Positions 4,161 through 51,284 of a stretch of DNA of 64,000 bases are shown here, one piece after another. The translations under genes and the position numbers were made by a program. Below the pieces are notes generated by a model. That model was not told the DNA's origin and made no database searches. It saw only the letters and a list, made by a program, of their open reading frames with translations. Within the stretch, counting starts at the first letter, position 1. Each line of letters starts with the position of its first letter. The DNA is from Dehalococcoidia bacterium (GTDB lineage: Bacteria > Chloroflexota > Dehalococcoidia > Bin125), in NCBI GenBank assembly GCA_022826965.1, contig JAJDTU010000002.1, positions 248,001 to 312,000 of the forward strand, in the 5' to 3' direction.

Positions 4161-4192
4161 CAGAGAGGGCGGACTCCGGTCCGCCCTCTCTG
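4161..4192 (+). terminator. Stem-loop terminator after the AOR gene
   Basis: A perfect 14-bp stem (left arm CAGAGAGGGCGGAC, loop TCCG) starts 21 nt after the AOR stop codon. There is no T-run, so it would be a hairpin-only or Rho-assisted terminator. Confidence 0.65.
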
Positions 4193-4213: not shown

Positions 4214-4305
4214 TCCCCTCTCCCCCCGCGGAGCGGGGGGAGATGCCGAAGGCAGAGGGGGGGCTCCGGAAACCCCCTCTCCCTCTGGGAGAGGGCTGGG
4301 GTGAG
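4214..4305 (+). repeat. GC-rich palindromic repeat, copy B, plus a second hairpin module
   Basis: Positions 4214-4266 carry the short form of the repeat (TCCCCCCG-CGGAG-CGGGGGGA, then GCCGAAGGCAGAGGGG). Positions 4275-4295 add a perfect 9-bp hairpin CCCTCTCCC-TCT-GGGAGAGGG followed by GCTGGGGTGAGGG. The end of this module sits just upstream of the GTG start at 4317. Confidence 0.75.
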
Positions 4306-6489: not shown

Positions 6490-7269
6490 ATGGCAATGGA
6501 TCGACTTGAGGGACGCGTTGCGTTGATCACTGGCGCCGGCTCGGGCATTGGGCAGGCGTCGGCGCTGCGCATGGCGTCCGAGGGCGCCGCAGTGATGTGC
6601 GCCGACATCAACGCCGAAGGCGCACAGACGACCGCCGCGCAAATCGCCGAGCACGGCGGCCGCTCGTCGACGATGGAGCTGGACGTCACCTCCGAGGACG
6701 CGGTCAAGGACGCGCTCTCACAGACCGTCCAGGTGCTCGGCGGCCTCGATGTGCTCTTCAACAACGCCGGCATCGGCGGCAGCCAGTACGGCTGGGACCG
6801 CACCATCGACGTCAACCTCAGCGGCGTCTACTACGGCACCTTCCACGGCGCGGCAATGCTCTCCGAACGCGGTGGCGGCTCGATCATCAACACCGCCTCG
6901 ATCGCCGGCCTCAACGGACTCCTGAGCGGTGCCTCGACGCAAGACATCGACCTCGAAGTCGAGGAGGGCGCCGGCGCATACGTCGCCGCCAAGCACGGCG
7001 TGGTCGGAATCACGCGACAGTTCGCCGTCACCTACGGCCCGCGCGGCGTGCGCGTCAACGCGATCTGTCCCGGCTACATCCACACGCCCATGACCGCCCA
7101 GATCCGCGAAATGGAGGGCGCAGAGGAGTTCCTGACATCCCTGCATCCCCTGGGCCGCCTCGGTCAGCCCGAGGAGATCGCCGCCGCCGCCGCCTTCCTC
7201 GCCTCCGACGACGCCAGCTTCGTCAACGGCATCGCGTTGCCAGTCGACGGCGGCTACACGGCTCGCTGA
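6490..7269 (+). CDS. Short-chain dehydrogenase/reductase with active-site insertion
   Basis: A 259-residue NAD(P)-dependent SDR. It has the cofactor motif TGAGSGIG (14-21), NNAG (91-94), catalytic S137, Y164 and K168, and a PG motif in NAICPGYIHTPM. The usual S-to-Y distance in classical SDRs is about 13 residues; here it is 27, with an insertion rich in acidic residues (STQDIDLEVEEGAGA) just before Tyr. AAGGAG lies upstream at a normal distance. Substrate unknown. It is followed closely by the small gene pair at 7291. Confidence 0.92.
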   Translation: MAMDRLEGRVALITGAGSGIGQASALRMASEGAAVMCADINAEGAQTTAAQIAEHGGRSSTMELDVTSEDAVKDALSQTVQVLGGLDVLFNNAGIGGSQYGWDRTIDVNLSGVYYGTFHGAAMLSERGGGSIINTASIAGLNGLLSGASTQDIDLEVEEGAGAYVAAKHGVVGITRQFAVTYGPRGVRVNAICPGYIHTPMTAQIREMEGAEEFLTSLHPLGRLGQPEEIAAAAAFLASDDASFVNGIALPVDGGYTAR

Positions 7270-13831: not shown

Positions 13832-14035
13832 CCGGAGGCAACGGCGCGTCTGGACATCTTTCTCCCCCCGCTCTGCGGGGGGAGATGCCGAAGGCAGAGG
13901 GGGGTCTGCCAGGATGCAAGGACGTGGCGTGATCGGCCCTGTGCAGCCGAACTCCGCTCTGTCCCCGCGGGACTTCTCCTCCCGCCCTGCGGAGGCAGAG
14001 CAGATCCCAGTCGGCGGAGAGACAGCGGTTCGCCG
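13832..14035 (+). repeat. Intercistronic region with GC-rich palindromic repeat, copy D
   Basis: The 204-bp gap between SBP1 and its permease contains the short-form repeat at about 13858-13909. It has a perfect 10-bp hairpin TCTCCCCCCG-CTCTG-CGGGGGGAGA followed by GCCGAAGGCAGAGGGGGG. Further GC-rich sequence with weaker symmetry fills 13940-14020. No gene is seen. As with REP elements between malE and malF of E. coli, it may stabilise the upstream SBP message relative to the permease message (inference). Confidence 0.65.
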
Positions 14036-16003: not shown

Positions 16004-17770
16004 ATGAGCGACCGAAACTACTGGCAACGGATCAAGAAGCGACAGTTCAGCAGGCGGTCCCTGCTACGAGCCTCAACGCGTGCGGGCATTGGTGCGGCTG
16101 GACTGATGCTCATCGGTTGCGGCGACGACGACGATGACGGCCAACAGCAAGCGGCGCCGGCCGCGGCTCAGGCGCAGCAACAGCAGCAACAACAGCAGCA
16201 GGCGATGCAGCAGGCTCAGGAGCAGCCTGAGCAGCAGGCAATGCAGCAGGAGCAACAGCAGCAGGCCGCCGTCGCCCAGGCCCAGCAGGCTGATGATGGT
16301 CCGAGGAAGGGTGGCAGGCTGATCGCTGGCGACACAACCAACTTCGAGGATGACGTGACGCTGCCCTATGCGATCGCAGAGGGTCGGTTCACTCAACCCC
16401 CCGACGCCTCGATCTGGGACTGGCTGGCGCAGCGCGGCGACACGCTCGAGCCCGAGCCTCGGCTGGCCGAGTCGTGGGAGCAGAACGCCGATGCGACGAG
16501 TACGATCTTCAAGCTCCGTCCCGGCCTCGAGTTCCACAACGGGAAGCCGATCAACGCCGAGGCCGTCAAGCTCAGCTACGAAGCAATGAACTGGGAGGAT
16601 ACGCCGAACAGCCAGGTGCGCGGGTTGGCCGGTGTTTACCTGGAGTCGATCGAGGTGATCGACGACATCACCGTGCAGTTCAACCACTCGAACTGGCCGG
16701 GCCCCGTGATCTACGACCTGGTCACGTTCGCGCCAATCGCAGACGCCGACAGCATCGCGGGCCTGGCTGCCATGGAAGAGATCAACGGCAGCGGGGCATT
16801 CAAGTTCGATTTCAGTCAATGGGAGCCGGGCGCGAAGTGGGTGTCCGTGCCGCACGAGAATCACTACGTACAGCCGCATCTTGACGCGATCGAGTACCGC
16901 AAGATCGCCGATGAGGACACGATTGTGCTGGCCCTCGAGAGCGGGGAACTCGACATGGCGGTCATTCCGCTCCCGCAGTACAACCGCATGAGCGAGTTGG
17001 AGCACCTGACCACCTTCGTGGGCGCGGTCGGCGGTTACTGGGTCGTTGGCCCCACACAGACGGCACTCGGCGGCGGTCACCCAGCGAACGACGATCCTCG
17101 CTTCCGCCGTGCCCTGCAGAAGGCGATTGACCGGGAGCGCATCCATGAGGATGTCTTCTATGGCGTGATGCCGATCGTGAACCAGATGTGGCCGCCCCAC
17201 TCGAGTGCGTATGACTCGCAATACGACGACATTGCGTATGACCCTGAGGGCGCTCGGGCGCTGTTGGAGGAAGCGGGTCTGGTGGGCACGGAACTGGACA
17301 TGCACATCTTCGAGGGCTGGCTCCCTGCTGGCGCCCCGGAGATTATCCAGGCGAACTTCAACGCGATCGGGCTGGACGTCACGATCAAAGTGATCGATCG
17401 GGCGGAATGGATCGAGCTCTTCCTGGCCGGCCAGATGCCCGGTCTGTACATGGCGAGCACGGGCTTCTTCTGGATGGAGCCAGAGACCCTGCCGAACATG
17501 AACTACCAATTCCGGCAGCCGGTCAACGCCGTGGCCGAGATCTCGGACGCCTATGTGTCGATCCTTGAGGGCTTTGCCTCTCGGCCCACGCCCGCTCAGC
17601 GCCAGGAGTTGTTCAACGACTGGAACGAGCTATATGCGGAGTCGCCCTGGTTGCTGCCCTATGCCGGTGCGGCCAATGTGGGCGCATACAACCACGACCG
17701 CGTAGGTGGGTTCTATTCCCAGATCGTGTCGGGCAAGGTCTATAAGGAAGACCTCTGGCTCAAGGCATAG
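16004..17770 (+). CDS. SBP2: Tat-lipoprotein substrate-binding protein (SBP family 5)
   Basis: A 588-residue receptor with the shared leader: SDRNYWQRIKK, SRRSLLR (Arg17-18) and lipobox IGC at Cys39, then GDDDDD and a Gln-rich linker to about residue 100. The mature part begins RKGGRLIAGDTTNFEDDVTL and carries SIWDWLAQRGDTLEPEPRLA and ESWEQNADATSTIFKLRPGL, the usual family-5 opening. The conserved mid-domain AIDRERIHEDVFYG and the hinge are present. Its nearest relatives in the window by eye are SBP3 and SBP4 (shared LAESWE, RPGLEFHNGKP). It is followed by a hairpin and a permease pair. Ligand unknown; dipeptides, amino-acid conjugates or other organics fit the family. Confidence 0.93.
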   Translation: MSDRNYWQRIKKRQFSRRSLLRASTRAGIGAAGLMLIGCGDDDDDGQQQAAPAAAQAQQQQQQQQQAMQQAQEQPEQQAMQQEQQQQAAVAQAQQADDGPRKGGRLIAGDTTNFEDDVTLPYAIAEGRFTQPPDASIWDWLAQRGDTLEPEPRLAESWEQNADATSTIFKLRPGLEFHNGKPINAEAVKLSYEAMNWEDTPNSQVRGLAGVYLESIEVIDDITVQFNHSNWPGPVIYDLVTFAPIADADSIAGLAAMEEINGSGAFKFDFSQWEPGAKWVSVPHENHYVQPHLDAIEYRKIADEDTIVLALESGELDMAVIPLPQYNRMSELEHLTTFVGAVGGYWVVGPTQTALGGGHPANDDPRFRRALQKAIDRERIHEDVFYGVMPIVNQMWPPHSSAYDSQYDDIAYDPEGARALLEEAGLVGTELDMHIFEGWLPAGAPEIIQANFNAIGLDVTIKVIDRAEWIELFLAGQMPGLYMASTGFFWMEPETLPNMNYQFRQPVNAVAEISDAYVSILEGFASRPTPAQRQELFNDWNELYAESPWLLPYAGAANVGAYNHDRVGGFYSQIVSGKVYKEDLWLKA

Positions 17771-17800: not shown

Positions 17801-17859
17801 GCAACGCCGCCGGCCGCCCGTTCTCCATCTCCTAGTGGATCACGGGCGGCCGGCGTTGC
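17801..17859. promoter_or_regulatory. Long intercistronic stem-loop between SBP2 and its permease
   Basis: The arms GCAACGCCGCCGGCCGCCCG (17801-17820) and CGGGCGGCCGGCGTTGC (17843-17859) pair over 17 bp with a 3-nt bulge and a 22-nt loop. It lies 30 nt after the SBP2 stop. It could terminate or stabilise the SBP2 message. It is not related in sequence to the dispersed GC-rich repeat. Confidence 0.65.
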
Positions 17860-20893: not shown

Positions 20894-22687
20894 ATGAACG
20901 AGAAGACCTACTGGCAGCGACTTCGCAAGCAACAACTGAGCCGGCGCCGACTGTTGAGGGCCGGCGGGCGAGCCGGGCTTGGCGCGGCCGGACTGGCGCT
21001 GATCGGCTGCGGCGACGACGACGACCGCCAGCAGGCGGTCGCCCAGCAACAGCAGCAACAGCAGCAACAGGCGATGGCCCAACAGCAGGACCAGCAACAG
21101 CAGGACCAGCCGCAGGCCGCCCAACAGGATCAGGCTGACCAGCAGCAGCACGACCACGATCAGCAGCAGCAAGACGATCACCAACACCAGGATCAGCAGC
21201 AACAGCAGACGGTCGCGGCGCCAGCCGACGATGCCCGGCGCGGCGGCGTCCTGCGGATTGGCTCGGACATTGGGCTCTCGACCTACCGAGCTCCCTATCT
21301 GTCGTCATCGGCGCATATCCCGCTCTACATCCCGTTCTGGGACACGCTGACCAAGTACTCGCCCGACGGTCTCGACCCGCAGCCCCACTTGGCCGAGAGC
21401 TGGGAGCTGAACGACGACCAGACCATGCTGCAAATCAAGCTGCGCCCGGGTCTCGAGTTCCACAACGGCAAACCGCTCAACGCGACCGAGGTCAAGCGCA
21501 GCCTGGAAGCGATGGACGACGAAGGCGTCGCCAACAACCAGGTCAAGGGCATCATGACCAAGTACGTCTCGGCGGTCGACGTCATCGACGATGTGACGTT
21601 GCAGCTGCAACTGGCCTGGGGCGGCACGCTGGTCTACGACGTGCTCAACTACGCCCAGATTCACGATGTCGACGACATCCCCAATCTGGACGGCTACACC
21701 TCGCTCAACGGCTCCGGTCCGTTCAAGTTCGACCCGTCCTCTTACCAGGTCGACCAGTACGCGGCCGGCGAGCGATTCGAGAACTTCTACGACCCGGCGC
21801 TGCTCGACGGTATTGAGCTGTACCAGTTCCCCGACGCGACGGCGATGTCGCTCGCGCTTGGTGCAGGCGAGATCGACCTGACCAACCGTCTGCCCAAGCC
21901 GGACTACGAGCGCTTCAACTCGGACCCGGACTTCACCGTCGTGGTCGCCCCGCCAACCCTCGCGATCTGGGTGCTCGGCATGGTCATTCCCAACGAGAAT
22001 GGCGGTCACCCAGCATTCGCCGATCCCAAGGTGCGGCAGGCGCTGTACCGCTGCATCGATCGCGAGCGCGTCGCCAACGAGACCTTCGAGGGTCTGGCGC
22101 TACCCAAGAACATCCTTTGGCCACCCTTCTCACCCGGCTACGACGACGCGCGCGACCGCGACTACTTCAATCCGGAGGAAGCCGCGCGGCTGCTTGAAGA
22201 GGCCGGCTACGGACCGGGTGAGCTCACGATCGAGCTCGGCCACGCCGGCGGCGAGGCCAACGAGATCGCGCAGGTGATTCAGGCCGGCGCGGCCGAAGCG
22301 GGCATCAACCTCAACATCCAGCTCTACGAGCCGGCCGTCGCGCGCGACCGCTTCCTCAATGCGAAGCACGAGTCCTACCTCTCGTCCTACGCGTTCTTCG
22401 CGCTGCATCCGCAAACGTTGCCGGTGATGAACTTCCAGATGCGGATCCCCAACTCCTGCGCCTACGAGCCCGACTACTACCAGGCGTTGATCGACAGCTT
22501 CGGCACGGCCGACTCGGACGCGCGCCGCAACGAGCTCCTGGAGGAGTTCAACCAGCTGCTCGATGACGAGCCTTGGATCGCGCCGATCGTGACCCGCAGC
22601 GACATCTGGGCCTGGTCGAGCAACTTCACCGGCATCGAGTTCGACGTGCTCAGCATTCCCTCGATGCAACGGATTCACCAGGTCTAA
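20894..22687 (+). CDS. SBP3: Tat-lipoprotein substrate-binding protein with His-bearing Gln-rich linker
   Basis: A 597-residue family-5 binding protein. The leader reads NEKTYWQRLRKQQ, SRRRLLR (Arg17-18) and lipobox LIGC with Cys39. The linker (40 to about 113) is mostly Gln and Asp and uniquely contains His86, His88, His96 and His98 in HDHD and DDHQHQD contexts, a possible metal site. The mature domain begins RRGGVLRIGSDIGLSTYRAP and includes HLAESWELNDDQTMLQIKLR and CIDRERVANETFEGLALPKN. It ends with the segment MNFQMRIPNSCAYEPDYYQA that is nearly repeated in SBP4. The ATG at 20894 gives the constant 39-residue leader. Permeases follow after a palindrome. Confidence 0.93.
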   Translation: MNEKTYWQRLRKQQLSRRRLLRAGGRAGLGAAGLALIGCGDDDDRQQAVAQQQQQQQQQAMAQQQDQQQQDQPQAAQQDQADQQQHDHDQQQQDDHQHQDQQQQQTVAAPADDARRGGVLRIGSDIGLSTYRAPYLSSSAHIPLYIPFWDTLTKYSPDGLDPQPHLAESWELNDDQTMLQIKLRPGLEFHNGKPLNATEVKRSLEAMDDEGVANNQVKGIMTKYVSAVDVIDDVTLQLQLAWGGTLVYDVLNYAQIHDVDDIPNLDGYTSLNGSGPFKFDPSSYQVDQYAAGERFENFYDPALLDGIELYQFPDATAMSLALGAGEIDLTNRLPKPDYERFNSDPDFTVVVAPPTLAIWVLGMVIPNENGGHPAFADPKVRQALYRCIDRERVANETFEGLALPKNILWPPFSPGYDDARDRDYFNPEEAARLLEEAGYGPGELTIELGHAGGEANEIAQVIQAGAAEAGINLNIQLYEPAVARDRFLNAKHESYLSSYAFFALHPQTLPVMNFQMRIPNSCAYEPDYYQALIDSFGTADSDARRNELLEEFNQLLDDEPWIAPIVTRSDIWAWSSNFTGIEFDVLSIPSMQRIHQV

Positions 22688-22716
22688 CGAGCGCAGGCAG
22701 ACCGTCGGACATCCGC

Positions 22717-22745
22717 TTGCAGGGCCGATCCGAGATCGGCATACT
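22717..22745 (+). promoter_or_regulatory. Promoter for the permease pair after SBP3 (TTGCAG-17-CATACT)
   Basis: TTGCAG at 22717-22722 and CATACT at 22740-22745 have the same 17-bp spacing as the SBP promoters. This would drive the permeases, and perhaps SBP4, independently of SBP3. The predicted start of transcription (about 22752) falls inside the palindrome that begins one base after the -10. Confidence 0.55.
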
Positions 22746-22783
22746 CTCACCAATCTGCCGTCAGGCGACGGCAGATTGGTGAG
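22746..22783. promoter_or_regulatory. 38-bp perfect palindrome between SBP3 and its permease
   Basis: The arms CTCACCAATCTGCCGTC and GACGGCAGATTGGTGAG are perfectly complementary (17 bp) around AGGC. The position directly downstream of a -10 box suggests a repressor operator. The position between SBP and permease genes equally suits an mRNA stem-loop that ends or protects the SBP3 message. Confidence 0.8.
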
Positions 22784-22832
22784 GGCAAGCGTCTGAGTGG
22801 CCGAGCGGAACTGACCCGGGAGGCGGTTGACC

Positions 22833-23789
22833 GTGGGACGGTACCTGGTTCGCCGCTTCCTTGAGGGTTTGCTGGTCGTCTTCCTCGCCAGCATCGTCAT
22901 CTTCCTGATCATCCGCCTGATTCCCGGCGATCCGGCGCAGCAACTCGCCGGAGAAGATGCGACTCTGGAGGACATCGAGCGGATCCGCGAGCAACTAGGC
23001 CTCAACGACCCAATCCTGAACCAATACGGCAACTGGATCAGCGGCGTCGTCCAGCTCGATTTCGGCAAGTCGTTTACCAAACGCGTACCGGTCCGAGACC
23101 TGATCGCCCAGTCGTTCCCGCCGACCATCGAGCTGGCGGTCGCGGCCTACATATTCGCGCTAGGGATCGGCGTGCCATTGGGGGTAGCGGCGGCCGTGTG
23201 GGCCAAGAAACCGCCGGACTATGGCGCCAGCGTGTTCAATCTGTTCACGCTCGGCATCCCCAACTTCGTGCTGGGCATCCTCTTGCTCTGGATTTTCGCG
23301 GTGGAGCTCGATCTCTTCCCGGTCTCGGGACGGGTCAGCGTGTTCGAGGACTTCGTCGCCGGCGTGCATCGGCTGGTCTTGCCGACAATTGCGGCGGGTT
23401 CGGTGATCGCCGCTGTGCTGGCGAGATTCGTGCGCACGTCAGTGGCTGAGGCGCTCGCGCAGGACTATGTCCGCACCGCGCACGCGAAGGGACTCGAAGG
23501 CCGCAAGGTGGTGATCAATCACGCGTTGCGCAACGCGCTGATCCCGATCGTGACCATCGCAGCGCTGCAGATCGGCAACCTGCTCGCAGGCGCCATCGTG
23601 GTCGAGATCGTGTTCACGCGTCCCGGATTCGGATTCCTGATCATCGACGGGATTAACGGACGCGACTACCTGCTCATTCAGGCGATGCTGGCGATCCTCG
23701 TGTTCCTCTTTGTCGCCGCCAACACGATCGCCGACATCACCTACGGCTATCTCGATCCGCGTATTCGCGTCTCCGGATTGGCTGGCTGA
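22833..23789 (+). CDS. ABC permease, DppB/OppB type (with SBP3/SBP4)
   Basis: A 318-residue DppB-family permease. GTG 22833 is chosen because GGGAGG lies 9 nt upstream and the resulting MGRYLVRRFLEG matches the paralog at 17929; an in-frame TTG at 22827 is too close to the ribosome site. Features: first helix LVVFLASIVIFLIIRLIPGD, first-loop LGLNDPILNQYGNWISG, EAA loop AQDYVRTAHAKGLEGRKV and C-terminus YLDPRIRVSG. Three bases separate it from the DppC gene. Confidence 0.94.
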   Translation: MGRYLVRRFLEGLLVVFLASIVIFLIIRLIPGDPAQQLAGEDATLEDIERIREQLGLNDPILNQYGNWISGVVQLDFGKSFTKRVPVRDLIAQSFPPTIELAVAAYIFALGIGVPLGVAAAVWAKKPPDYGASVFNLFTLGIPNFVLGILLLWIFAVELDLFPVSGRVSVFEDFVAGVHRLVLPTIAAGSVIAAVLARFVRTSVAEALAQDYVRTAHAKGLEGRKVVINHALRNALIPIVTIAALQIGNLLAGAIVVEIVFTRPGFGFLIIDGINGRDYLLIQAMLAILVFLFVAANTIADITYGYLDPRIRVSGLAG

Positions 23790-24822: not shown

Positions 24823-26667
24823 ATGACCAACAATCACTGGAGCCGAGTCCGCAAGCAACGGCTGAGCCGTCGCAGCGTCCTCCGCGCGAGCGCCCGCGCC
24901 GGCGTCGGCGCAGCCGGCCTGGCCTTGGTCGGCTGCGGCGGAGACGATGACGACGATGCGCAGCCGCAAGCAGTTGCTCAACAGGAGCAGCAACAAGAGC
25001 AGCCGATGCAACAGGAGCAGCAGCAGCAAGCTCAGCAACAGGCGCAGCCCGAGGCGCAGCAACAGCAGGCTGTGCAGGAGGAGCAACAACAACAGGCCGT
25101 CGCGCAGCAAGAACAACAACAGCAGCAGGAGCAACCGGCTGTCCAGCAGCAGCAACAGGAGCAACAACAAGAGCAACAAGTCGCTGCCGAGGCAGAGCCT
25201 GCCGGTCCGCCGCAGGGCGGGACGTTGCGTCTGGGAATCGTCTACTCGCCGGCGAACTACGCCGCTCCCTACTCGGGTGATATCGCCTTCGGCCCGGCGA
25301 TCTGGGAAACCCTCACCAAGTACGGCGCCGACGGTCTGATTCCTGAGCCCCATCTAGCGGAGAGCTGGGAGTTCAATGACGACCAGACCGTCCTGACCAT
25401 GACCCTGCGCCCAGGATTGACGTTCCACGACGGCAAGCCACTTACGGCGGAAGAGGTGAAGAAGAGCCTCGAACGGATGGACGACGAGGATGTGGCCAAC
25501 AGCCAGGTCAAGAGCATCTTCAACAAGTATGTGAGCGCCGTGACGGCAGTTGACGAGACCACGCTTCGGATCGACCTGGCTTGGCCGGGCGAGGCGATCT
25601 TCGACGCGCTGCACTTTGCCAACATCCATGACGCGGATGCGATCTCCAGTCTCGAGGGCTACACCCAGGTCAACGCCAGCGGCGCCTTCAAGTTCGATAC
25701 CGAGTCATACGAGGTGGACGTATACGCCCGCGGCGACCGCTTCGAGGACTCCTATGACCCGGCCGCGCTAGACGCCGTAGAGTGGCGCACGTTCCAGGAC
25801 GCAGAATCGATGGCCCTGGCGCTGCAGGCCGGTGAGCTCGATATGGTCTATGACTTGCCCAAGTCGTGGCACGCGAGCTTCGCTGAAGACGACGGTTTTC
25901 AGGTCGAGTTGGCGCCGCCGACCAGCCTGCAATGGGTATTGGGCATGGTCGGGACGGGCCGCGGCGGCGGCCACGAGATCATGGACGACCCGAAGGTGCG
26001 TCGCGCGCTGTACAGGGTCATCGACCGCCAGCGGATCGCGGCCGAGATCTTCGAGGGCCTGTCCGAAGAGAAGAACGTGCTCTGGCCGAAGTTCTCGCCG
26101 GGCTACGACCCGTCGCTGGACCGGGACTACTTCGACGTTGACGAGGCGAGAGAACTGATCACCGAGGCAGGCTATGGGGACGGAACGCCTCCCCTCAAGA
26201 TCGCCTGCATCGGGTTTCAGCAAGAAGCGTTGCAAATGGCGCAGATCATCCAGCAGGACGCAGCGGACGCCGGAATCAATGTCGAGCCGGAGGCGATGGA
26301 GTTCTCAACCTGGTTGGACCGATTTCTGGCCGGCACGCACGAGGGGCTCTACATGGCCCTCTTCTCCTTCTATGCTATGCACCCGCAGACGCTGCCAGTG
26401 ATGAACTACCAGATGCGAATCCCGAACTCCTGCGCTTACGACTCTCCCGAGTACCAGGCGATGATCGACGGTTGGCCGTCTGCGGACAGCGAGGACAAGC
26501 GCCAGGCCCTGCTCGACGAGTTCAACAGAATCCTCGATGAAGAGCCCTGGGTCGCGCCAATATGCACAACCGTTTCGATCTGGGCCTCACAGGCGAATGT
26601 CAAGGGGTTCTGGCAGGACGTCGTCGGCCGCCCGCGACTACAGGATGTCTACTTTGACGATGCCTAG
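24823..26667 (+). CDS. SBP4: Tat-lipoprotein substrate-binding protein without own permease
   Basis: A 614-residue family-5 receptor. The leader is TNNHWSRVRKQR, SRRSVLR, lipobox LVGC with Cys38. A long Gln/Glu-rich linker runs to about residue 128 with the last runs of Gln near 118. The mature domain begins PQGGTLRLGIVYSPANYAAP and contains HLAESWEFNDDQTVLTMTLR, VIDRQRIAAEIFEGLSEEKN and MNYQMRIPNSCAYDSPEYQA, closely parallel to SBP3. ATG 24823 is preferred over TTG 24817 because it matches the leader length. It has no permease downstream; it presumably shares the permeases of SBP3. Confidence 0.92.
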   Translation: MTNNHWSRVRKQRLSRRSVLRASARAGVGAAGLALVGCGGDDDDDAQPQAVAQQEQQQEQPMQQEQQQQAQQQAQPEAQQQQAVQEEQQQQAVAQQEQQQQQEQPAVQQQQQEQQQEQQVAAEAEPAGPPQGGTLRLGIVYSPANYAAPYSGDIAFGPAIWETLTKYGADGLIPEPHLAESWEFNDDQTVLTMTLRPGLTFHDGKPLTAEEVKKSLERMDDEDVANSQVKSIFNKYVSAVTAVDETTLRIDLAWPGEAIFDALHFANIHDADAISSLEGYTQVNASGAFKFDTESYEVDVYARGDRFEDSYDPAALDAVEWRTFQDAESMALALQAGELDMVYDLPKSWHASFAEDDGFQVELAPPTSLQWVLGMVGTGRGGGHEIMDDPKVRRALYRVIDRQRIAAEIFEGLSEEKNVLWPKFSPGYDPSLDRDYFDVDEARELITEAGYGDGTPPLKIACIGFQQEALQMAQIIQQDAADAGINVEPEAMEFSTWLDRFLAGTHEGLYMALFSFYAMHPQTLPVMNYQMRIPNSCAYDSPEYQAMIDGWPSADSEDKRQALLDEFNRILDEEPWVAPICTTVSIWASQANVKGFWQDVVGRPRLQDVYFDDA

Positions 26668-26700: not shown

Positions 26701-28974
26701 CTACTGGCTCGCCATCTCCCGGCGCGCGCGTTCGCGGGCGACCCACTCGGCGGCCGGGCCGTCGAACGGGGTGACGACTACGTCCACCTGTCGGATGTTG
26801 CCCTCGAACTCGAACGGCGGATCGTAGCGGTCGCCGACGGGCGAGCGGCGGTCGGCGCCGATGTCGAACTCGCCGTGACCGAACAGGTTCTGGCGTTGCA
26901 GAGTGGTGATCTGCCCTGAGGCGACGGTGCTGCCGTTGATCGTGAGGGTCAACGTTGCCGGGCCGCGCGGGCCGTCGCTTTGCAGAGCAACGCCGATCTC
27001 CAACTCGCCGTCGGGGACGGGCCCATCGCTGCGGAAGCGGAACCAGTCCTCGTAGGCGTGGTAGTCGAAGTGGAGATGGTTGTCCTGGATGTAGAGCGTG
27101 CAGCCGCTGTGGATCGAGCCGCGATTGAAGATCACGCCCTGCTGCTCGGTTGAGACGCGGGCGCATTGCGCGGTGACTGTCCAGCTGCCGACATCGAGCG
27201 CGGGCGAAACGTCGCGCTGGAGGTGGGTGATCGGCGGCGCGTAGCGGTAGTGGAAGTCGTAGTGCGGGCTTCCGGGCGCCTGCGAAGGCTGATTGATTTC
27301 CAGGGTGCGGTCGTCGAGCGGTAACACGCCGTGCTTGCCGGCTTCGATCCACCAGCGGTCGATCAGGGCACGCAAACGCTCGGGTTCCTCCGCGGCGAGG
27401 TTGTTGGTTTCAGAGAAGTCCTCGTCGACGTGGTACAGCTCCCACTCGTCATCGGACCATTCGTTGCCCATGCGGTGCCAGGTGACGGCCTTCCAGCCGT
27501 TATCCCAGAGTCCGCGATGACCGAGCATTTCGAAGTACTGTGTGTCTTTCGTGGTGGCGGCGTCGGGGTCGTTAAACGTGTAGCAGAAGCTGGTGCCGGC
27601 GATCGGGAGTTGGCTGCGGCCCTGGTAGGTGTCGGGCGCTTCCGTGTTCAGCGTGTCCAGGACTGTGGGCAGCACATCGGAGACGTGGTGGAACTGGCCT
27701 CGGATGCCGCCGCGCTCGCCGATGCCCTGCGGCCAGTGAGCGATCAGGGGCACCCGAACGCCGCCGCCGTGCGTGTTCTGCTTGTACCAGCGCAGGGGTG
27801 TGTTGCCCGCCTGGGCCCAGCCCCACGGATAGTTCGAGGCCGAGCGCGGCCCGCCGATCTCGTGCAGGCGCGACTGCACCTCTTCCAGGTCGTCGCGCGG
27901 ACCGAACAGGCGCGGTTCGTCGGAGACGCCGGTCGGTCCGCCTTCCTGCGATGCGCCGTTGTCGGCCATCACCAGGATCAGCGTGCTGTCGAGCTGGCCG
28001 GACTCTTCGAGGTGGTCGAAGAGGCGTCCGAGCTGTGCGTCGGTGTGCTCGAGGAAGCCGGCGAAGGCATCCTGCAACGCAACCGCGAAGCGCTGCGTGT
28101 TCGATTCCATCTGGTCCCAGGCCTCGACGCCGCGGTTGCGCGGCGCGAGCTGCGTGCCTTCGGGCACAATGCCCAGCTCGATCTGACGCGCGAAGACCTG
28201 CTCGCGGACGGCGTCCCAACCGATGTCCCAGCGTCCGCGCTGACGCTCGATGTACTCCTGCGGCGCCTGGTGCGGCGCGTGCGTCGCGCCCAGCGCGAAG
28301 TACATGAAGAATGGCTGGTCGGGATAGATCGAATGGTGGTCGCGCAGGAACTGTTGCGCCTGGTCGACCAGATCCTCGGTCAGGTGGTAGCCGTCCTCGG
28401 GCGAGCGGGGTGGCTCGACCAGCGTGTTGTCGCGGGTCAGTTCGGGGTAGAACTGGTCGGTCTCGCCGGGCAGGAAGCCGTAGTAGCGGTCGAATCCGCG
28501 CTGCAACGGCCAGTCGTGGTACGGGCCGGCCTGGCTCAGTTCCTCGCCCGGGCAGAGGTGCCACTTGCCCAGCGCGAAGGTGGCGTACCGCTCGTCGCGC
28601 AGCAGTTCCGCCATCGTCGCGGCGTGCTGCGAGATGCGTCCGCGTGTGTTGGGGTAGCCGTTGTTGAAGTTGGTCACCGAGCGCATTCCCACCGTGTGGT
28701 GGTTGCGTCCCGTGAGCAGCGCAGCGCGCGTCGGCGAGCAGAGCGGCGTCACATGGAAGTTGGTGTAGCGCAGCCCGTTCTGCGCCAGGCGATCGATGTT
28801 TGGCGTCGGCGTCAGGCCGCCGTAGCAGTTGAGGTGCGCGAACCCGAGATCGTCGAACAACACGATCAGCACGTTGGGCCGATCCTGCGGCGCGGTGGTC
28901 ATCGGCGGCCACCACGGCTCCGATTCTCGAAACGTGCGGCCAATCTTGCCCTGAAACTGGTCGTCGCTGGTCAT
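26701..28974 (-). CDS. Cys-type arylsulfatase with C-terminal jelly-roll-like domain
   Basis: A 757-residue sulfatase that hydrolyses sulfate esters after conversion of its active-site Cys to formylglycine. The consensus C79-S-P-T-R-A-A-L-L-T-G-R is intact, metal-binding Asp pair FDD (about 41-42) and MADNGAS near 350 are present, as is GKWHL. After about residue 580 a beta-rich region with GVIFNRGSIHSG and LYIQDNHLHFDYHAY resembles the C-terminal module of long arylsulfatases such as mycobacterial AtsA. There is no signal peptide, so it acts in the cytoplasm. ATG 28974 is chosen over an in-frame upstream ATG because it aligns with the sister gene, also 757 residues. Third gene of the sulfatase operon. 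Confidence 0.94.
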   Translation of the reverse strand: MTSDDQFQGKIGRTFRESEPWWPPMTTAPQDRPNVLIVLFDDLGFAHLNCYGGLTPTPNIDRLAQNGLRYTNFHVTPLCSPTRAALLTGRNHHTVGMRSVTNFNNGYPNTRGRISQHAATMAELLRDERYATFALGKWHLCPGEELSQAGPYHDWPLQRGFDRYYGFLPGETDQFYPELTRDNTLVEPPRSPEDGYHLTEDLVDQAQQFLRDHHSIYPDQPFFMYFALGATHAPHQAPQEYIERQRGRWDIGWDAVREQVFARQIELGIVPEGTQLAPRNRGVEAWDQMESNTQRFAVALQDAFAGFLEHTDAQLGRLFDHLEESGQLDSTLILVMADNGASQEGGPTGVSDEPRLFGPRDDLEEVQSRLHEIGGPRSASNYPWGWAQAGNTPLRWYKQNTHGGGVRVPLIAHWPQGIGERGGIRGQFHHVSDVLPTVLDTLNTEAPDTYQGRSQLPIAGTSFCYTFNDPDAATTKDTQYFEMLGHRGLWDNGWKAVTWHRMGNEWSDDEWELYHVDEDFSETNNLAAEEPERLRALIDRWWIEAGKHGVLPLDDRTLEINQPSQAPGSPHYDFHYRYAPPITHLQRDVSPALDVGSWTVTAQCARVSTEQQGVIFNRGSIHSGCTLYIQDNHLHFDYHAYEDWFRFRSDGPVPDGELEIGVALQSDGPRGPATLTLTINGSTVASGQITTLQRQNLFGHGEFDIGADRRSPVGDRYDPPFEFEGNIRQVDVVVTPFDGPAAEWVARERARREMASQ

Positions 28975-30017: not shown

Positions 30018-32291
30018 CTACTGCTGAGCCATCAACAGTTTGAAGGCGTTCCTGGCTGCTTCGTAGGCTGCGCCGGACTTCGGGTACGGCGTTACTTCCA
30101 GCGTCAACTCGTGGATAGTCCCGTCAAACTCAAACGGGGCCTCGTACGAGTCAGACACCGGCGATTTGCGATCGGAGCCGATGTCAGCGCCGCCTCGACC
30201 GCCAAAGCCGCCACGTACGAGGAACGGGACATCGCCTTCCCCCACCCGTTCACTGTTCAGACGGATCGTGACGTGTCCCGGCGCCGAGGGTGCCTCGCCA
30301 TCCATGCTCATGCCGATCGTGCAGCGGCCGTCTGGCACCTCGATCTCGGACGCAACTTGCGTCACCTCGGTGAAGGCGTTGTAGTCGACTCGTAGTCGGT
30401 TGTCCTTGATGTAGAAGCTGATCCCGCCCATGACCGATCCACGGGCAAAGATCACACCGTCGCCGAGTCCGTCACGCTCAATGTCCGCCTCAAGCACCCA
30501 TGAGCCCATACCAACCGCGGGCGCGATCTCGCCGGGGAGATGCGAAACCGGCGGCGTGTAGCGGTACTTCAGACCGTTGTGCGGGCCGCCGGGACGTTGC
30601 GTGGGCCCGCCGAGCTGGAAACTGCGGTCGTCGAGTGGGAGCACGCCGTGGCGCCCCGCCTCGACCCACCAACGGTCGATCAGTTCGCGCAGCTTCTCAG
30701 GATCCTCCGCGGCCAGGTTGTTGGACTCCGAGAAGTCCTCAGCGACGTGGTAGAGCTCCCACTCGTCATCGCCCCAGGGATCGTTCTTCTGGTGCCGCGT
30801 GACCGCCTTCCAGCCGTCGACCCAGATCCCGCGATGGCCCAGCATCTCAAAGTACTGCGCCTCCTTGGCGGTGTCGGCGTTGGGGTCGTCAAAGGCGTAG
30901 GCGAAGCTGGTACCGCTGACCGGCAACTGTCGATGCCCGGCGTACTCCTCGGGCGCGGTCGCCTGGACAGACTCGAGCACCGTCGGCAGCACGTCGCTGA
31001 CGTGGTGGAACTGTCGACGGAAGCTCCCGGTGTCCTTGATCCGGTCGGGCCAATGCACAATCAGCGGGACCCGTACCCCGCCGCCGTGCGTGTTTTGCTT
31101 GTACCACTTGAGCGGCGTGTTGCCGGCTTGCGACCAGCCCCATGGATAGTTGGGCGAGCTCCGCGGACCGCCAATCTCGTGCAACCGCGTCTGTGCCTCA
31201 TCGACGTCGTCCAGTAACGGCTGACCGTAGCGCGCCGTGTCGGAGACGCCCTGCGGTCCACCCTCCTGGCTGGCGCCGTTATCGGCCATCAGCATCAGGA
31301 TCGTGTTATCGAGCTGGCCTGAGTCGTCCAGATACGAAATCAGGCGTCCTATCTGTTCGTCGGTGTGGGTCAGGAATCCGGCGAACGCCTCCTGAAATGC
31401 GGCGAGGAAGCGCTTCATGTTGGGCGAGAAGTCGTCCCAGGGCTTGACGCCGGCGTTGCGCGGCGCCAGTTCGGTGCCCTCCGGGATCACGCCCAGCTCG
31501 AGCTGTCGCGCGAACCACTCCTTGCGCACCTCGTCCCAGCCCTGGTCGAACTTGCCCCGGTAGCGCTCGATGTACTCGGCCGGCGCCTGGTGCGGCGAGT
31601 GCGTCGCGCCCAGCGCGAAGTACAGGAAGAACGGTTGGCCGGGGTACACCGACTGATGATCGCGCAGGAAGCCCGTCGCGTGATCGACGATGTCCTCGGT
31701 GAAGTGGTAGCCCTCCTCGGGCGTGCGAGGCGGATCGATCAGATGGTTGTCGTAGCAGAGATCGGGGTAGAACTGGTCGGTCTCGCCCGAGAGGAAGCCG
31801 TAATAGCGATCGAAGCCGCGCTGCAGCGGCCAGTCGTGGAATGGTCCGGCCTGCGAACAGGTTTCAGACGGATTCAGGTGCCACTTGCCGACGGCAAACG
31901 TCGCATAGTTCTCGTCTCGCAGCATCTCCGCCATCGTCGCCGCGTTGCGACTGACGGCGCCGCGCATGTTCGGGTAGCCGGGGTCATAGCTCGAGATCGA
32001 GCGCATCCCGACAGCGTGGTGGTTACGGCCTGTCAGCAACGAGGCTCGCGTCGGCGAGCAGAGCGCCGTGACATGGAAGTTGGTGAACCGCAGGCCGCCC
32101 GCCGCCAGACTGTCGATGTTCGGCGTTGCGATCGTCGAGCCGTAACAGCCGAGGTGCGAAAACCCCGTGTCATCGAACAGGATGATCACCACATTCGGCC
32201 GCTCCTGCGGCGCTGTCGGTAGCGGCGGCCACCAGGGCTCCGACTCCCGGAACGTGCGGCCAATCACTCCACCGAAATCTTCCTGATTCAT
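30018..32291 (-). CDS. Cys-type arylsulfatase, paralog of the 26701 gene
   Basis: A 757-residue sulfatase with the modification motif C78-S-P-T-R-A-S-L-L-T-G-R, metal ligands in FDDTGFSHLG and MADNGAS, and GKWHL. The beta-rich C-terminus has GVIFARGSVMGGISFYIKDN and ends ARNAFKLLMAQQ. It is collinear with the sister gene over its full length, including the N-terminal IGRTFRESEPWWPP. AGGAG lies 6 nt before ATG 32291; the ATG at 32297 touches the ribosome site and is less likely. No signal peptide. First gene of the operon with FGE and the second sulfatase. Natural substrates are unknown; sulfated polysaccharide fragments, sterol sulfates or aryl sulfates are possible. Confidence 0.94.
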   Translation of the reverse strand: MNQEDFGGVIGRTFRESEPWWPPLPTAPQERPNVVIILFDDTGFSHLGCYGSTIATPNIDSLAAGGLRFTNFHVTALCSPTRASLLTGRNHHAVGMRSISSYDPGYPNMRGAVSRNAATMAEMLRDENYATFAVGKWHLNPSETCSQAGPFHDWPLQRGFDRYYGFLSGETDQFYPDLCYDNHLIDPPRTPEEGYHFTEDIVDHATGFLRDHQSVYPGQPFFLYFALGATHSPHQAPAEYIERYRGKFDQGWDEVRKEWFARQLELGVIPEGTELAPRNAGVKPWDDFSPNMKRFLAAFQEAFAGFLTHTDEQIGRLISYLDDSGQLDNTILMLMADNGASQEGGPQGVSDTARYGQPLLDDVDEAQTRLHEIGGPRSSPNYPWGWSQAGNTPLKWYKQNTHGGGVRVPLIVHWPDRIKDTGSFRRQFHHVSDVLPTVLESVQATAPEEYAGHRQLPVSGTSFAYAFDDPNADTAKEAQYFEMLGHRGIWVDGWKAVTRHQKNDPWGDDEWELYHVAEDFSESNNLAAEDPEKLRELIDRWWVEAGRHGVLPLDDRSFQLGGPTQRPGGPHNGLKYRYTPPVSHLPGEIAPAVGMGSWVLEADIERDGLGDGVIFARGSVMGGISFYIKDNRLRVDYNAFTEVTQVASEIEVPDGRCTIGMSMDGEAPSAPGHVTIRLNSERVGEGDVPFLVRGGFGGRGGADIGSDRKSPVSDSYEAPFEFDGTIHELTLEVTPYPKSGAAYEAARNAFKLLMAQQ

Positions 32292-35626: not shown

Positions 35627-37477
35627 TTAGGCCTCGGCACCCTCGGGGATTTCGTCGAACCACATGCCCCAGAGGATTGCATTGGACGCGGTCGGTCCTG
35701 GCGTCGGGCGGAATCCTCTCATGTAGGAGCGGAACGCGACAGTGACCGTACTCCACGACCAGTACAGCCTCGGGTTCCACTCCTCCAGCAGGCGGTCCTG
35801 CGCTTCGTCGTAGATCTCCTTGCGCTCTTCGACGTCGAAGACGGAACGTCCCTTTTCGACCAGCGCGTCGAACTCCGGGTTGGAGAAGTTGCCATAGTTC
35901 TGTCCACCGGTGGTGTGCAGGTCGTTGTAGAGCAGGTCCGGGTCGGAGGCGCCCTGCTGACCAAGCATGATCATCGAGAACTCACGGTTCTGGCGCGCAG
36001 CCAGAGCGTCCGTGGTGGTCAGTTCGTTGATGCCGGTGTTGATGCCAACCTCAGCTAGATTCTGCTGCAAGACAACGGCATAGTCCGTCGCATTGGGCGC
36101 CCAGATGTCCAGCGGCGGGAACCCGTTGAGGTCGACACCCGACGCGTCGAGGAGCTGGCGTGCTTCGGCCAGGTCCTCCTGGCGTAGGTCGCCGGAGCGG
36201 TAGCCGGGCAACTGGCGCAACTCATCCTCGGTGCGGCCGTAAGGCTGGATTGCGACCGCGATCGGTCCACCGATCACGAGACCGCCGAGCGACAGCGCGA
36301 TCAGCTGCTCGCGGTCGGCGGCCAGGTGGACGGCGTTGCGTACTCTCGGGTCGGTGTACGGCTCGACCTCGCAATGGATGTGCGTAGCCATGCCGAAGGT
36401 GACCGGGTTGGGCACGCCGGTTACTTCCTCCTCACCCATCTCGTCGATCGCCGCCTGGAAGTCAGTGAAAGCGCCGGTCCATTGGTAGCTGAGGAAGTCG
36501 GTCTGGCCGTCAACGAACGCCGCAATGCGCAGCGCATCGTCGGGCAGGGCGATGCCGCGGTAACCGTCGAAATACGGCTGGCCTTCCTTGTAGTAGTTGG
36601 GATGCCGCACGAGATTCAGTTCGACCTCAGGTTCGCGCGATTCGCCCATGAAGGCGCCGGTGCCGATCTGGGCTTCGAAGTCGGTCGACAGCCCCTCGTC
36701 GCCGAACGCATCGACGGCGTCACGCGAGACCATCAGCATGTTGTCTTCGGCGATCGCTTTGAGGATCGGCGAGAACACCTGTCCGGCCTGCACATGCATC
36801 GTCAACTCGTCCGTCGCCTCGAATTTGTCGACCAGAGCGAAGCGGTCTTTGAAGACGAACTCGGGGTTGTCGAAGCCAAACCGCTCGAGTCCGAAGACAG
36901 CGTCTTCGGCGGTGAACTGGCGTCCGTCCAGCGGCGGCTTGGGATGCCAGTACACGTTGGGCTTAATCGAGTAGATGAAGTTGAGCTCGTCCACGACCTC
37001 AGGCAAGTCCGCCATGCCCTCATGGATGACAAAGCCCTCGTCGAGGTAGTTGATCCAGTCGTAGATCTGGTGGACGCCGGCGTAGGTGCCGCCGTGGATC
37101 ACGATCGCCGGGTCGAAAATGCCGCCGTCAGACATCACGATGCGGACGATGCCGCCCTGCTTGGGCCCATCGGCGGCAGCCTGGGCTTGCGCCTGAGCGG
37201 CCGCCTGCTGTTGCTGTTGTTCTTGCGCGGTCTGGGTCTGGGCCTGTTGCTGCGCGGCCTGTTGGTCCGCCTGTTGCTCGACCTGCGCCGCCTCTTGCTG
37301 TTGCTGCTGCTGTTGTTGCACAGCTGCGGAAGCGGGCTGATCGTCATCGTCATCATCGCCGCAGCCGACGAGCGTCAATCCTGCCGCGCCGACACCCGCA
37401 CGCGCACTCGCCTTCAGTAGTCCACGCCGCGACATTCGGGTTCGGCGCATTCGGGTCCAGTAGTTTCGCTCAGCCAT
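35627..37477 (-). CDS. SBP5: Tat-lipoprotein substrate-binding protein, tandem paralog
   Basis: A 616-residue family-5 receptor with leader AERNYWTRMRRTR, SRRGLLK (Arg17-18), lipobox LVGC with Cys39, Asp run and Gln/Ala-rich linker to about residue 103. The mature domain begins KQGGIVRIVMSDGGIFDPAI and includes VHQIYDWINYLDEGFVIHEG and a C-terminal YWSWSTVTVAFRSYMRGFRP. It is the closest relative of SBP6, almost collinear along its full length, and both resemble SBP7 more distantly. It lies nearest the permease pair and lacks a recognisable CATACT-type promoter, so it probably depends on read-through from SBP6. A TAGAAT (minus strand, 37514-37509) is a weak -10 candidate. Confidence 0.93.
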   Translation of the reverse strand: MAERNYWTRMRRTRMSRRGLLKASARAGVGAAGLTLVGCGDDDDDDQPASAAVQQQQQQQQEAAQVEQQADQQAAQQQAQTQTAQEQQQQQAAAQAQAQAAADGPKQGGIVRIVMSDGGIFDPAIVIHGGTYAGVHQIYDWINYLDEGFVIHEGMADLPEVVDELNFIYSIKPNVYWHPKPPLDGRQFTAEDAVFGLERFGFDNPEFVFKDRFALVDKFEATDELTMHVQAGQVFSPILKAIAEDNMLMVSRDAVDAFGDEGLSTDFEAQIGTGAFMGESREPEVELNLVRHPNYYKEGQPYFDGYRGIALPDDALRIAAFVDGQTDFLSYQWTGAFTDFQAAIDEMGEEEVTGVPNPVTFGMATHIHCEVEPYTDPRVRNAVHLAADREQLIALSLGGLVIGGPIAVAIQPYGRTEDELRQLPGYRSGDLRQEDLAEARQLLDASGVDLNGFPPLDIWAPNATDYAVVLQQNLAEVGINTGINELTTTDALAARQNREFSMIMLGQQGASDPDLLYNDLHTTGGQNYGNFSNPEFDALVEKGRSVFDVEERKEIYDEAQDRLLEEWNPRLYWSWSTVTVAFRSYMRGFRPTPGPTASNAILWGMWFDEIPEGAEA

Positions 37478-37515
37478 GGTGCTCCCTTTCCCGCAACTCT
37501 TGCCTCGGATTCTAG

Positions 37516-37568
37516 CCGCGCTGCGGGGAGACCCCCCTCAGCGTTCGTCAACTCCCCCAGAGGGGGGA
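37516..37568 (-). repeat. GC-rich repeat-like element, copy F, between SBP6 and SBP5
   Basis: On the minus strand the element reads CCCCCCTCTGGGGGAG, a spacer with TTGACGAACG, then GAGGGGGGTCTCCCC. It belongs to a related but distinct palindromic type. It occupies the position where other SBP genes have their -35 box. Confidence 0.6.
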
Positions 37569-37594
37569 CACAGAAGCAGATCAGATTTCTTTCG

Positions 37595-39448
37595 TTAGGA
37601 CTGAGCTCCTTCTGGGATCTCGTCGAACCACATGCCCCAGAGGATCGCATTGGACGCGGTCGGTCCCGGCGTCGGGCGGAAGCCCTTCAGATAGGACCGC
37701 ATCGCGACGGTGACCGTGCTCCAGGACCAGTACAGTCTGGGATTCCATTCGTTGAGCAAGCGATCCTGCGCTTCGTCGTAAATCGCCTTGCGCTCTTCCA
37801 CCTCGAAGACTGAGCGGCCCTTCTCAACAAGCGCGTCGAACTCGGGCTCGGAGAAGTTGCCGTAGTTCTGACCGCCGGTGGTGTGCAGGTCGTTGTAAAG
37901 CAGATCTGGATCGGACGCACCCTGTTGGCCGAGCATGATCATCGAGAACTCTCTGTTCTGGCGCGCGGCCAAGGCGTCGGTGGTGGTCAACTCATTGATC
38001 CCGACGTTGATGCCGACCTCAGCCAGATTCTGCTGCAAGACCACGGCGTAGTCCGTAGCGCTGGGCGCCCAGATGTCGAGCGGCGGGAAGCCGTTGAGGT
38101 CGACACCCGCGGCGTCAAGCAGCTGGCGCGACTCGGCCAAGTCTTCCTGGCGGAGGTCGCCGGAGCGATAGCCCGGAAGCTGTCGCAACTGATCCTCGGT
38201 CCGGCCGTAGGGCTGAATCGCGACCGCGATCGGCCCGCCGATCACGAGTCCGCCAAGTGAGAGCGCGATCAGCTGCTCGCGGTCGGCGGCCAGGTGGACG
38301 GCGGTGCGCACCCGCGGGTCGGTGTAGGGCTCGACCTCGCAGTGGATGTGGGTGGCCATGCCGAAGGTGACCGGGTTGGGCACGCCGACCACTTCGTCCT
38401 CGCCTAGCTCGTCGCGGGCCGCCTCCAGGTCGACCAATGAGCCAGTCCACTGGCGATCGAGGAAGTCAATCTGGCCATCAACGAACGCGGCAACGCGCAG
38501 CGCGGCATCGGGGAGAGCGATGCCCTTGTAGCCGTCGAAGCAGGGTTGGCCCTCCTTGTAGTAGTTGGGGTGTCCGGCCAGGACCAACTCGACCTCCGGT
38601 TCGCGCGACACGCCCATCATCCCACCCGTACCGATCTGCGCTTCGAAGTCAGTGGAGATGCGTTCATCGCCGAAGGCGTCGACGGCGTCGCGCGAGACCA
38701 TCAGCATGTTGTCTTCGGCGATCGCTGTGAGAATCGGCGAGAACACCTGTCCCGCCTGCACATGCATGGTCAGCTTGTCGGTCGCTTCGAACTTGTCGAC
38801 GATCGAGAACCGGTCCTTGAAGACGAATTCCGGGTTGTCGAAGCCGAAGCGCTCGAGCCCGAAGGCGGCATCCTCGGCGGTGAACTGGCGTCCGTCCAGC
38901 GGCGGCTTGGGATGCCAGTAGACGTTGGGCTTGATCGTGTAGACGAAGTTGAGTTCATCGATCACCTCCGGGAGCTCGGCCATGGCGGAGGTGAGGACAA
39001 AGCCCTCGTCGAGGTAGTTGACCCAGTCGTAGATCTGGTGGACGCCGGCGTAGGTACCACCGTGGATGGCGATCGCCGGGTCGAAGATGCCGCCGTCGGA
39101 CATGGAGATGCGAACGGTGCCGCCTTGCTTCGGTCCGTCCGCCGCCTGAGCCTGGGCCTGAGCGGCAGCCTGCTGTTGTTCCTGCTGTTCCGCCGCAGCC
39201 TGGGTCTGGGCCTCTTGCTGCATCGCTTGCTGCTCGGCCTGCTGTTCGACCTGTGCCGCCTGTTGGTCCTGTTGCTGCTGCTGTTGCACCTCGGCGGCGG
39301 CGGACTGCGCATCGTCGTCGTCATCGTCGCCACAGCCAACGAGCGCGAGCCCCGCTGCGCCAACGCCGGCGCGCGCACTCGCCTTCAGTAGCCCGCGCCG
39401 CGACATCCGACCGCGCCCCATTCGAGTCCAGTAGTTCCGCTCGGGCAT
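37595..39448 (-). CDS. SBP6: Tat-lipoprotein substrate-binding protein, tandem paralog
   Basis: A 617-residue receptor. The leader is PERNYWTRMGRGR, SRRGLLK, lipobox LVGC with Cys39, then Asp run and Gln/Ala/Glu-rich linker to about 102. The mature domain KQGGTVRISMSDGGIFDPAI and the rest match SBP5 almost residue for residue, for example PLDGRQFTAEDA and VGINELTTTDALAARQNREF-like segments. Differences concentrate in surface segments such as LDRQWTGSLVDLEAARDELG. It is a recent duplication of SBP5 by eye. It has its own promoter at 39511-39539. Retention of two near-copies suggests dosage or subtle ligand differences. Confidence 0.93.
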   Translation of the reverse strand: MPERNYWTRMGRGRMSRRGLLKASARAGVGAAGLALVGCGDDDDDDAQSAAAEVQQQQQQDQQAAQVEQQAEQQAMQQEAQTQAAAEQQEQQQAAAQAQAQAADGPKQGGTVRISMSDGGIFDPAIAIHGGTYAGVHQIYDWVNYLDEGFVLTSAMAELPEVIDELNFVYTIKPNVYWHPKPPLDGRQFTAEDAAFGLERFGFDNPEFVFKDRFSIVDKFEATDKLTMHVQAGQVFSPILTAIAEDNMLMVSRDAVDAFGDERISTDFEAQIGTGGMMGVSREPEVELVLAGHPNYYKEGQPCFDGYKGIALPDAALRVAAFVDGQIDFLDRQWTGSLVDLEAARDELGEDEVVGVPNPVTFGMATHIHCEVEPYTDPRVRTAVHLAADREQLIALSLGGLVIGGPIAVAIQPYGRTEDQLRQLPGYRSGDLRQEDLAESRQLLDAAGVDLNGFPPLDIWAPSATDYAVVLQQNLAEVGINVGINELTTTDALAARQNREFSMIMLGQQGASDPDLLYNDLHTTGGQNYGNFSEPEFDALVEKGRSVFEVEERKAIYDEAQDRLLNEWNPRLYWSWSTVTVAMRSYLKGFRPTPGPTASNAILWGMWFDEIPEGAQS

Positions 39449-39510
39449 GTTCTGCCCTCTCCAAACGACTCCGCCCTACGGGCTGCGGAGCCTGCTCAAC
39501 AAGTGCGCGT

Positions 39511-39539
39511 AGTATGCCGATCCCCACGCGGGCTTTCAA
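39511..39539 (-). promoter_or_regulatory. Promoter of SBP6 (TTGAAA-17-CATACT, minus strand)
   Basis: On the minus strand TTGAAA (39539-39534) and CATACT (39516-39511) are 17 bp apart. The -10 is 62 nt from the ATG. Confidence 0.65.
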
Positions 39540-39559
39540 CAAGCGCCATGGATCGCCGC

Positions 39560-51248: not shown

Positions 51249-51284
51249 CAAGGGGTTCCTTCCGACTTCGGAAGGAACCCCTTG
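51249..51284 (+). terminator. Perfect stem-loop between amidohydrolase and SBP8
   Basis: A 16-bp perfect stem (core AAGGGGTTCCTTCCG, loop ACTT) lies 29 nt after the amidohydrolase stop and just before the SBP8 promoter. It probably terminates the upstream transcript; there is only a weak T-rich tail. Confidence 0.7.

Follow-up and report, generated by a model that had tools for sequence, protein, structure and literature searches.

The gap between a gene for the solute-binding protein (SBP) of a peptide-type transporter and the permease genes that follow it in a Dehalococcoidia genome (assembly of 3.0 Mb in 14 contigs) contains a long perfect palindrome next to a promoter-like sequence. The question is whether this palindrome acts as a protein-binding site in DNA or as a stem-loop in the mRNA. 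It is found in the window, i.e. the whole stretch of 64,000 nt that was analyzed. The upstream cistron, SBP3 (gene call at positions 20894–22687, + strand), belongs to the SBP_bac_5 family (PF00496, E-value = 2.7e-61) and shows a lipoprotein-type N-terminus. The first downstream cistron (22833–23789, +) encodes an OppB-type permease (Pfam BPD_transp_1) with a GTG start at 22833 that agrees with orthologue starts, and a Shine-Dalgarno-like GGGAGG is present at 22818–22823 (+), outside of the hairpin. Orthologous loci of the permease, with 88%–97% identity, come from MAGs named Chloroflexi, Chloroflexota or Dehalococcoidia. The palindrome lies on the same strand as both genes, with 58 nt between it and the stop codon of the SBP gene and 49 nt between it and the permease GTG.

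The genome has a total of 36 SBP_bac_5 genes. SBP paralogues in the window are at positions 16106–17770, 20894–22687, 24823–26667, 35627–41359 and 51507–53360, and they share an N-terminal sequence, NYWxRM..SRRxLLxAS.RAG.GAAG..L.GCG, followed by an acidic, glutamine-rich linker. This N-terminus resembles a twin-arginine signal combined with a lipobox. The transporter cluster is adjoined by two genes for sulfatases whose C-termini are of the SGSH_C type (26701–28974 and 30018–32291, −).

The left arm (CTCACCAATCTGCCGTC, positions 22746–22762, +) and the right arm (GACGGCAGATTGGTGAG, positions 22767–22783, +) form a perfect 17-bp stem around the loop AGGC (22763–22766, +), the tip of which varies among orthologues. 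A repeat finder gives the same arms in extended form, and as RNA the stem reaches 19 pairs by a T-G wobble (22745/22784) and the pair C22744/G22785. The preliminary description of this DNA had reported a 17-bp perfect inverted repeat with a 4-nt centre directly after CATACT, situated between SBP3 and its permeases; the letters at 22740–22783 and the Pfam assignments on both sides agree with this. Folding of the entire gap (22688–22832) yields −75.5 kcal/mol (z = −4.8). In a 444-kb sample, which was taken as stretches and represents about 15% of the genome, the palindrome is the joint longest among perfect and near-perfect hairpins, and a Markov control for the 444 kb has no stem with an effective length greater than 13. 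The stem is far beyond chance expectation, and chance is excluded as its origin. There is no U-run directly 3′ of the stem, where GGCAAGCGTC has one T in 10 positions, and thus classic intrinsic termination is not predicted. A search of the window in Rfam gave no match.

Orthologues of SBP3 were found in six relatives with 88%–94% identity. Five of the six display TTGCRN-N17-(C/G)ATACT followed directly by a hairpin that starts with CTC and ends with GAG; the other relative (G006) has a shorter gap with neither promoter nor hairpin. The window and the five relatives thus give a set of six sequences. At these junctions the stem, at most 19 pairs long, persists with altered letters, and 90.3% of the alignment cells pair. 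Covariation is 0.379 compared with 0.155 ± 0.034 in shuffles uncorrected for relatedness (0/500), and it is also above every slid version of the alignment. There are 16 double-change cells versus 6.2, and seven stem pairs are altered on both sides. Because the shuffles ignore relatedness and the sequences number only six, the weight of the argument falls on the slid versions and on the changes that are mirrored in the two arms. The outer CTC and GAG ends are invariant in the six orthologues, and the hairpin tips differ greatly between close relatives. As judged from this alignment, the hairpin is conserved as pairing and not as sequence, and together with the folding z-score of −4.8 the covariation points to a stable RNA stem kept as a structure. 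A point against an SBP-permease element is that in two of the six orthologues (L033 and L035, from G002 and G001) the promoter and hairpin are located between SBP3 and another SBP gene instead of a permease gene. This arrangement suggests that genes were gained or lost around a junction that was itself retained.

The sequence that abuts the hairpin consists of a −35 box, TTGCAG (positions 22717–22722, +), and, after a 17-nt spacer, a −10 box, CATACT (positions 22740–22745, +); TTGC and ATACT are invariant in the six orthologues. A generic sigma-70 scan detected no promoter here, a result superseded by a family-specific motif. Several SBP genes in the window are preceded by TTG-N20-CATACT sites with the 17-nt spacer, and the pattern TTGMA-N16-GGCATACT has 33 matches in 20 family genomes versus 2 for the reversed pattern, all of them in this Chloroflexota genus. 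A variant with an 18-nt spacer, which served as a negative control, gave near-control numbers. Among 34 unique sites inspected, 29 lead to SBP genes whose products begin with MxERNYW, xSDRNYW or close variants, four are SBP3-permease junctions, and one (L140) resembles a chance match. An A is found at the seventh base past the −10 box in 26 of the 34 sites, which puts the predicted transcription start at A22752 (+), inside the left arm. With conserved −35 and −10 boxes at sigma-70 type spacing and a predicted initiating purine, TTGCAG-N17-CATACT is probably a real internal promoter. The −10 box of the preliminary description is made credible by the family motif and the invariant ATACT, and its placement of the start within the palindrome is supported by the position of the A.

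The preliminary description had interpreted the palindrome as a repressor operator. A dimeric repressor that binds the 38 bp over the internal start would shut off transcription of the permease, and in favor of this, the inverted repeat adjoins a conserved −10 box and spans the predicted start; the CTC and GAG ends are invariant, and these best-conserved outer pairs abut the −10 box, which is also the place expected for a protein bound to the DNA. However, the search of the genome for other copies of the arm, which had been proposed as a check, reveals no second copy at 0–1 mismatches, and at 2–3 mismatches there are 14 matches (both arms included) compared with 9 in the reversed control, a slight excess. 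Nor does the palindrome recur as a site at promoters that would be regulated together. The spacing from the innermost invariant G/C of one arm to that of the other is 12, 10, 10, 11, 12 and 12 nt, unlike a fixed dimer site, and the variable positions stay complementary, which would not be required of operator positions that are not read. In addition, the 46 nt after the −10 box have a mean z of −4.6 at the six SBP3 junctions versus −1.0 at another 28 sites that carry this type of promoter, most of which are without a palindrome; the comparison indicates that the hairpin tracks the junction and not the promoter. An operator function is thus disfavored and appears improbable. The alternative given in the same description, an mRNA stem-loop between the SBP and permease genes, is better supported.

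A stem-loop in RNA may also act from the 5′ end. The mRNA of ompA has a 5′-terminal stem-loop that is a stabilizer, and a transcript from A22752 would likewise open with a stem, since RNA from the predicted start has AATCTGCCGTC/GACGGCAGATT, a stem of 11 bp, right at its 5′ terminus. The hairpin would then chiefly shield the leading end of permease mRNA that originates at the internal promoter, and a weak stem is seen at the same place in some other SBP leaders. Against this, folding from the predicted start is strong in only four of the six orthologues (z = −2.2 to −3.4) and about 0 in the other two, and the promoter family folds weakly from that point (mean −0.7). Unlike the ompA structure, the conserved stem reaches upstream of A22752. 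Two covarying pairs are upstream of the predicted start and outside of the internal transcript, and this argues that selection acts either on the RNA of read-through transcripts or on the DNA duplex. Protection of the permease leader as the chief role is considered unlikely, though less so than the operator. A general 5′-leader hairpin for the whole promoter family was rejected on the basis of the weak folding.

Hairpins recur at other SBP junctions of this organism. Of the SBP-permease gaps that are at least 50 nt long, 21 of 30 fold with z < −2, mostly with unrelated sequences; the 30 gaps are from the same genome, its genus and a few outside loci, and as some are related they are not 30 independent cases. 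Many of the 21 show strong stems without such a promoter, e.g. L106 (stem ACAACATCCCAAACC) and L103 in the same genome, L061 in bin125, and the hairpin at window positions 17808–17855 (+). The latter is unrelated in sequence, is found at the neighboring SBP-permease junction (17770/17929) and has drifted versions in its relatives L049 and L036. Permease-permease gaps have a median length of 0. Of the SBP-SBP gaps, 7 of 12 also fold well, consistent with a role at gene ends.

The distribution of perfect stems in the 444-kb sample bears on whether the palindrome has a function at all. Template-switch (quasi-palindrome) mutation can maintain perfect palindromes without selection, and the greatly divergent stem tips of close relatives are what such a process would give. 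However, perfect stems of at least 9 bp cluster at gene ends and SBP junctions: of 127 tandem gaps, 17 have such a stem (2.2 expected), as do 3 of 13 convergent gaps and none of 49 divergent gaps, with the reservation that about half of the longest stems are copies of one dispersed repeat, so that independent stems are fewer than those counted. A neutral palindrome is very improbable on this evidence. The gene-end stems of at least 9 bp are T-poor downstream.

Other palindromes were found in the same search. Perfect gene-end stems of 14 and 16 bp are at window positions 4161–4192 and at L024 positions 6646–6681, 21–32 nt past stop codons and without T-runs. A second 17-bp perfect inverted repeat, at 51249–51284, lies 30 nt past an amidohydrolase gene and directly precedes an SBP gene's promoter, TTGCAA-N17-CATACT; here a gene-end hairpin is on the other side of a promoter of this type. 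The dispersed palindrome is REP-like, TCTCCCCCCGC-nnn-GCGGGGGGAGATGCCGAAGGCAGAGGGGG, and has 76 genome matches (with 3 mismatches or fewer) versus 0 for the reversed control. Its copies in the sample are all intergenic; those in the window are at 4217–4245 and 13861–13885, and the latter forms a hairpin (+) at a third SBP-permease junction (13831/14036).

The likely function of the element, which we hold with good though not full confidence, is that of an intercistronic RNA stem-loop that raises SBP over permease expression, together with an internal promoter that restarts permease transcription. Transcripts from the SBP gene would fold into the 17–19 bp hairpin past the stop codon, and this would partly terminate transcription and/or shield the SBP message from 3′-to-5′ exonucleases such as PNPase. 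The genome encodes both PNPase and Rho, thus protection and termination are both possible; a combination of protection with leaky termination is favored. SBP mRNA would then exceed permease mRNA. The abutting SBP-type promoter would restart transcription at about A22752, and the restarted permease transcripts would retain just the 11 inner base pairs of the hairpin. Most likely the cell would thereby make much more solute-binding protein than membrane channel. More tentatively, the promoter and hairpin may form one fused module that cuts off SBP messages and also sets an independent permease level. Because the outer arm lies downstream of the −10 box but upstream of the start, only read-through RNA would then have the full hairpin, and transcripts restarted at the internal promoter would escape it.

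The protective structure at the E. coli malE-malF junction consists of REP elements, a dispersed repeat. In malEFG and four other ABC operons of E. coli the SBP segment of the mRNA is stable, and hairpins are found at most stable 3′ ends (PMC5927463). The present locus is similar in having a stable hairpin past the SBP gene, with accumulation of the SBP message as the same predicted result, but unlike the malE-malF REP its stem is unique in the genome, where a dispersed repeat is found at another junction (13861–13885). Another parallel is Ruminiclostridium cellulolyticum, in which stem-loops after SBP genes stop transcription early with measurable efficiency, and the class of these terminators with the least U has the most stable stems (PMC9045158). 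These internal terminators of Clostridia share with the present element the SBP-translocator position, a long stem and a low U content (their Type IV), and an excess of SBP transcript over translocator transcript is their outcome, as is predicted here. The locus differs from the cellulolytic Clostridia in phylum, in a GC-rich stem without any U-tract and in the abutting SBP-type promoter, and termination here is a prediction. Terminators without a U-run have been reported in other bacteria, in a survey without Chloroflexi data (PMC8355165). The present analysis would extend this device for SBP-over-permease stoichiometry to a genus of Chloroflexota that is uncultured and has many peptide-type transporters. 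Metatranscriptomes offer a means of checking both the promoter motif and the hairpins at the junctions. A hairpin at an SBP junction is an already known arrangement; the sole, modest twist is the abutting promoter, which suggests a compact setting of two expression levels at one junction.
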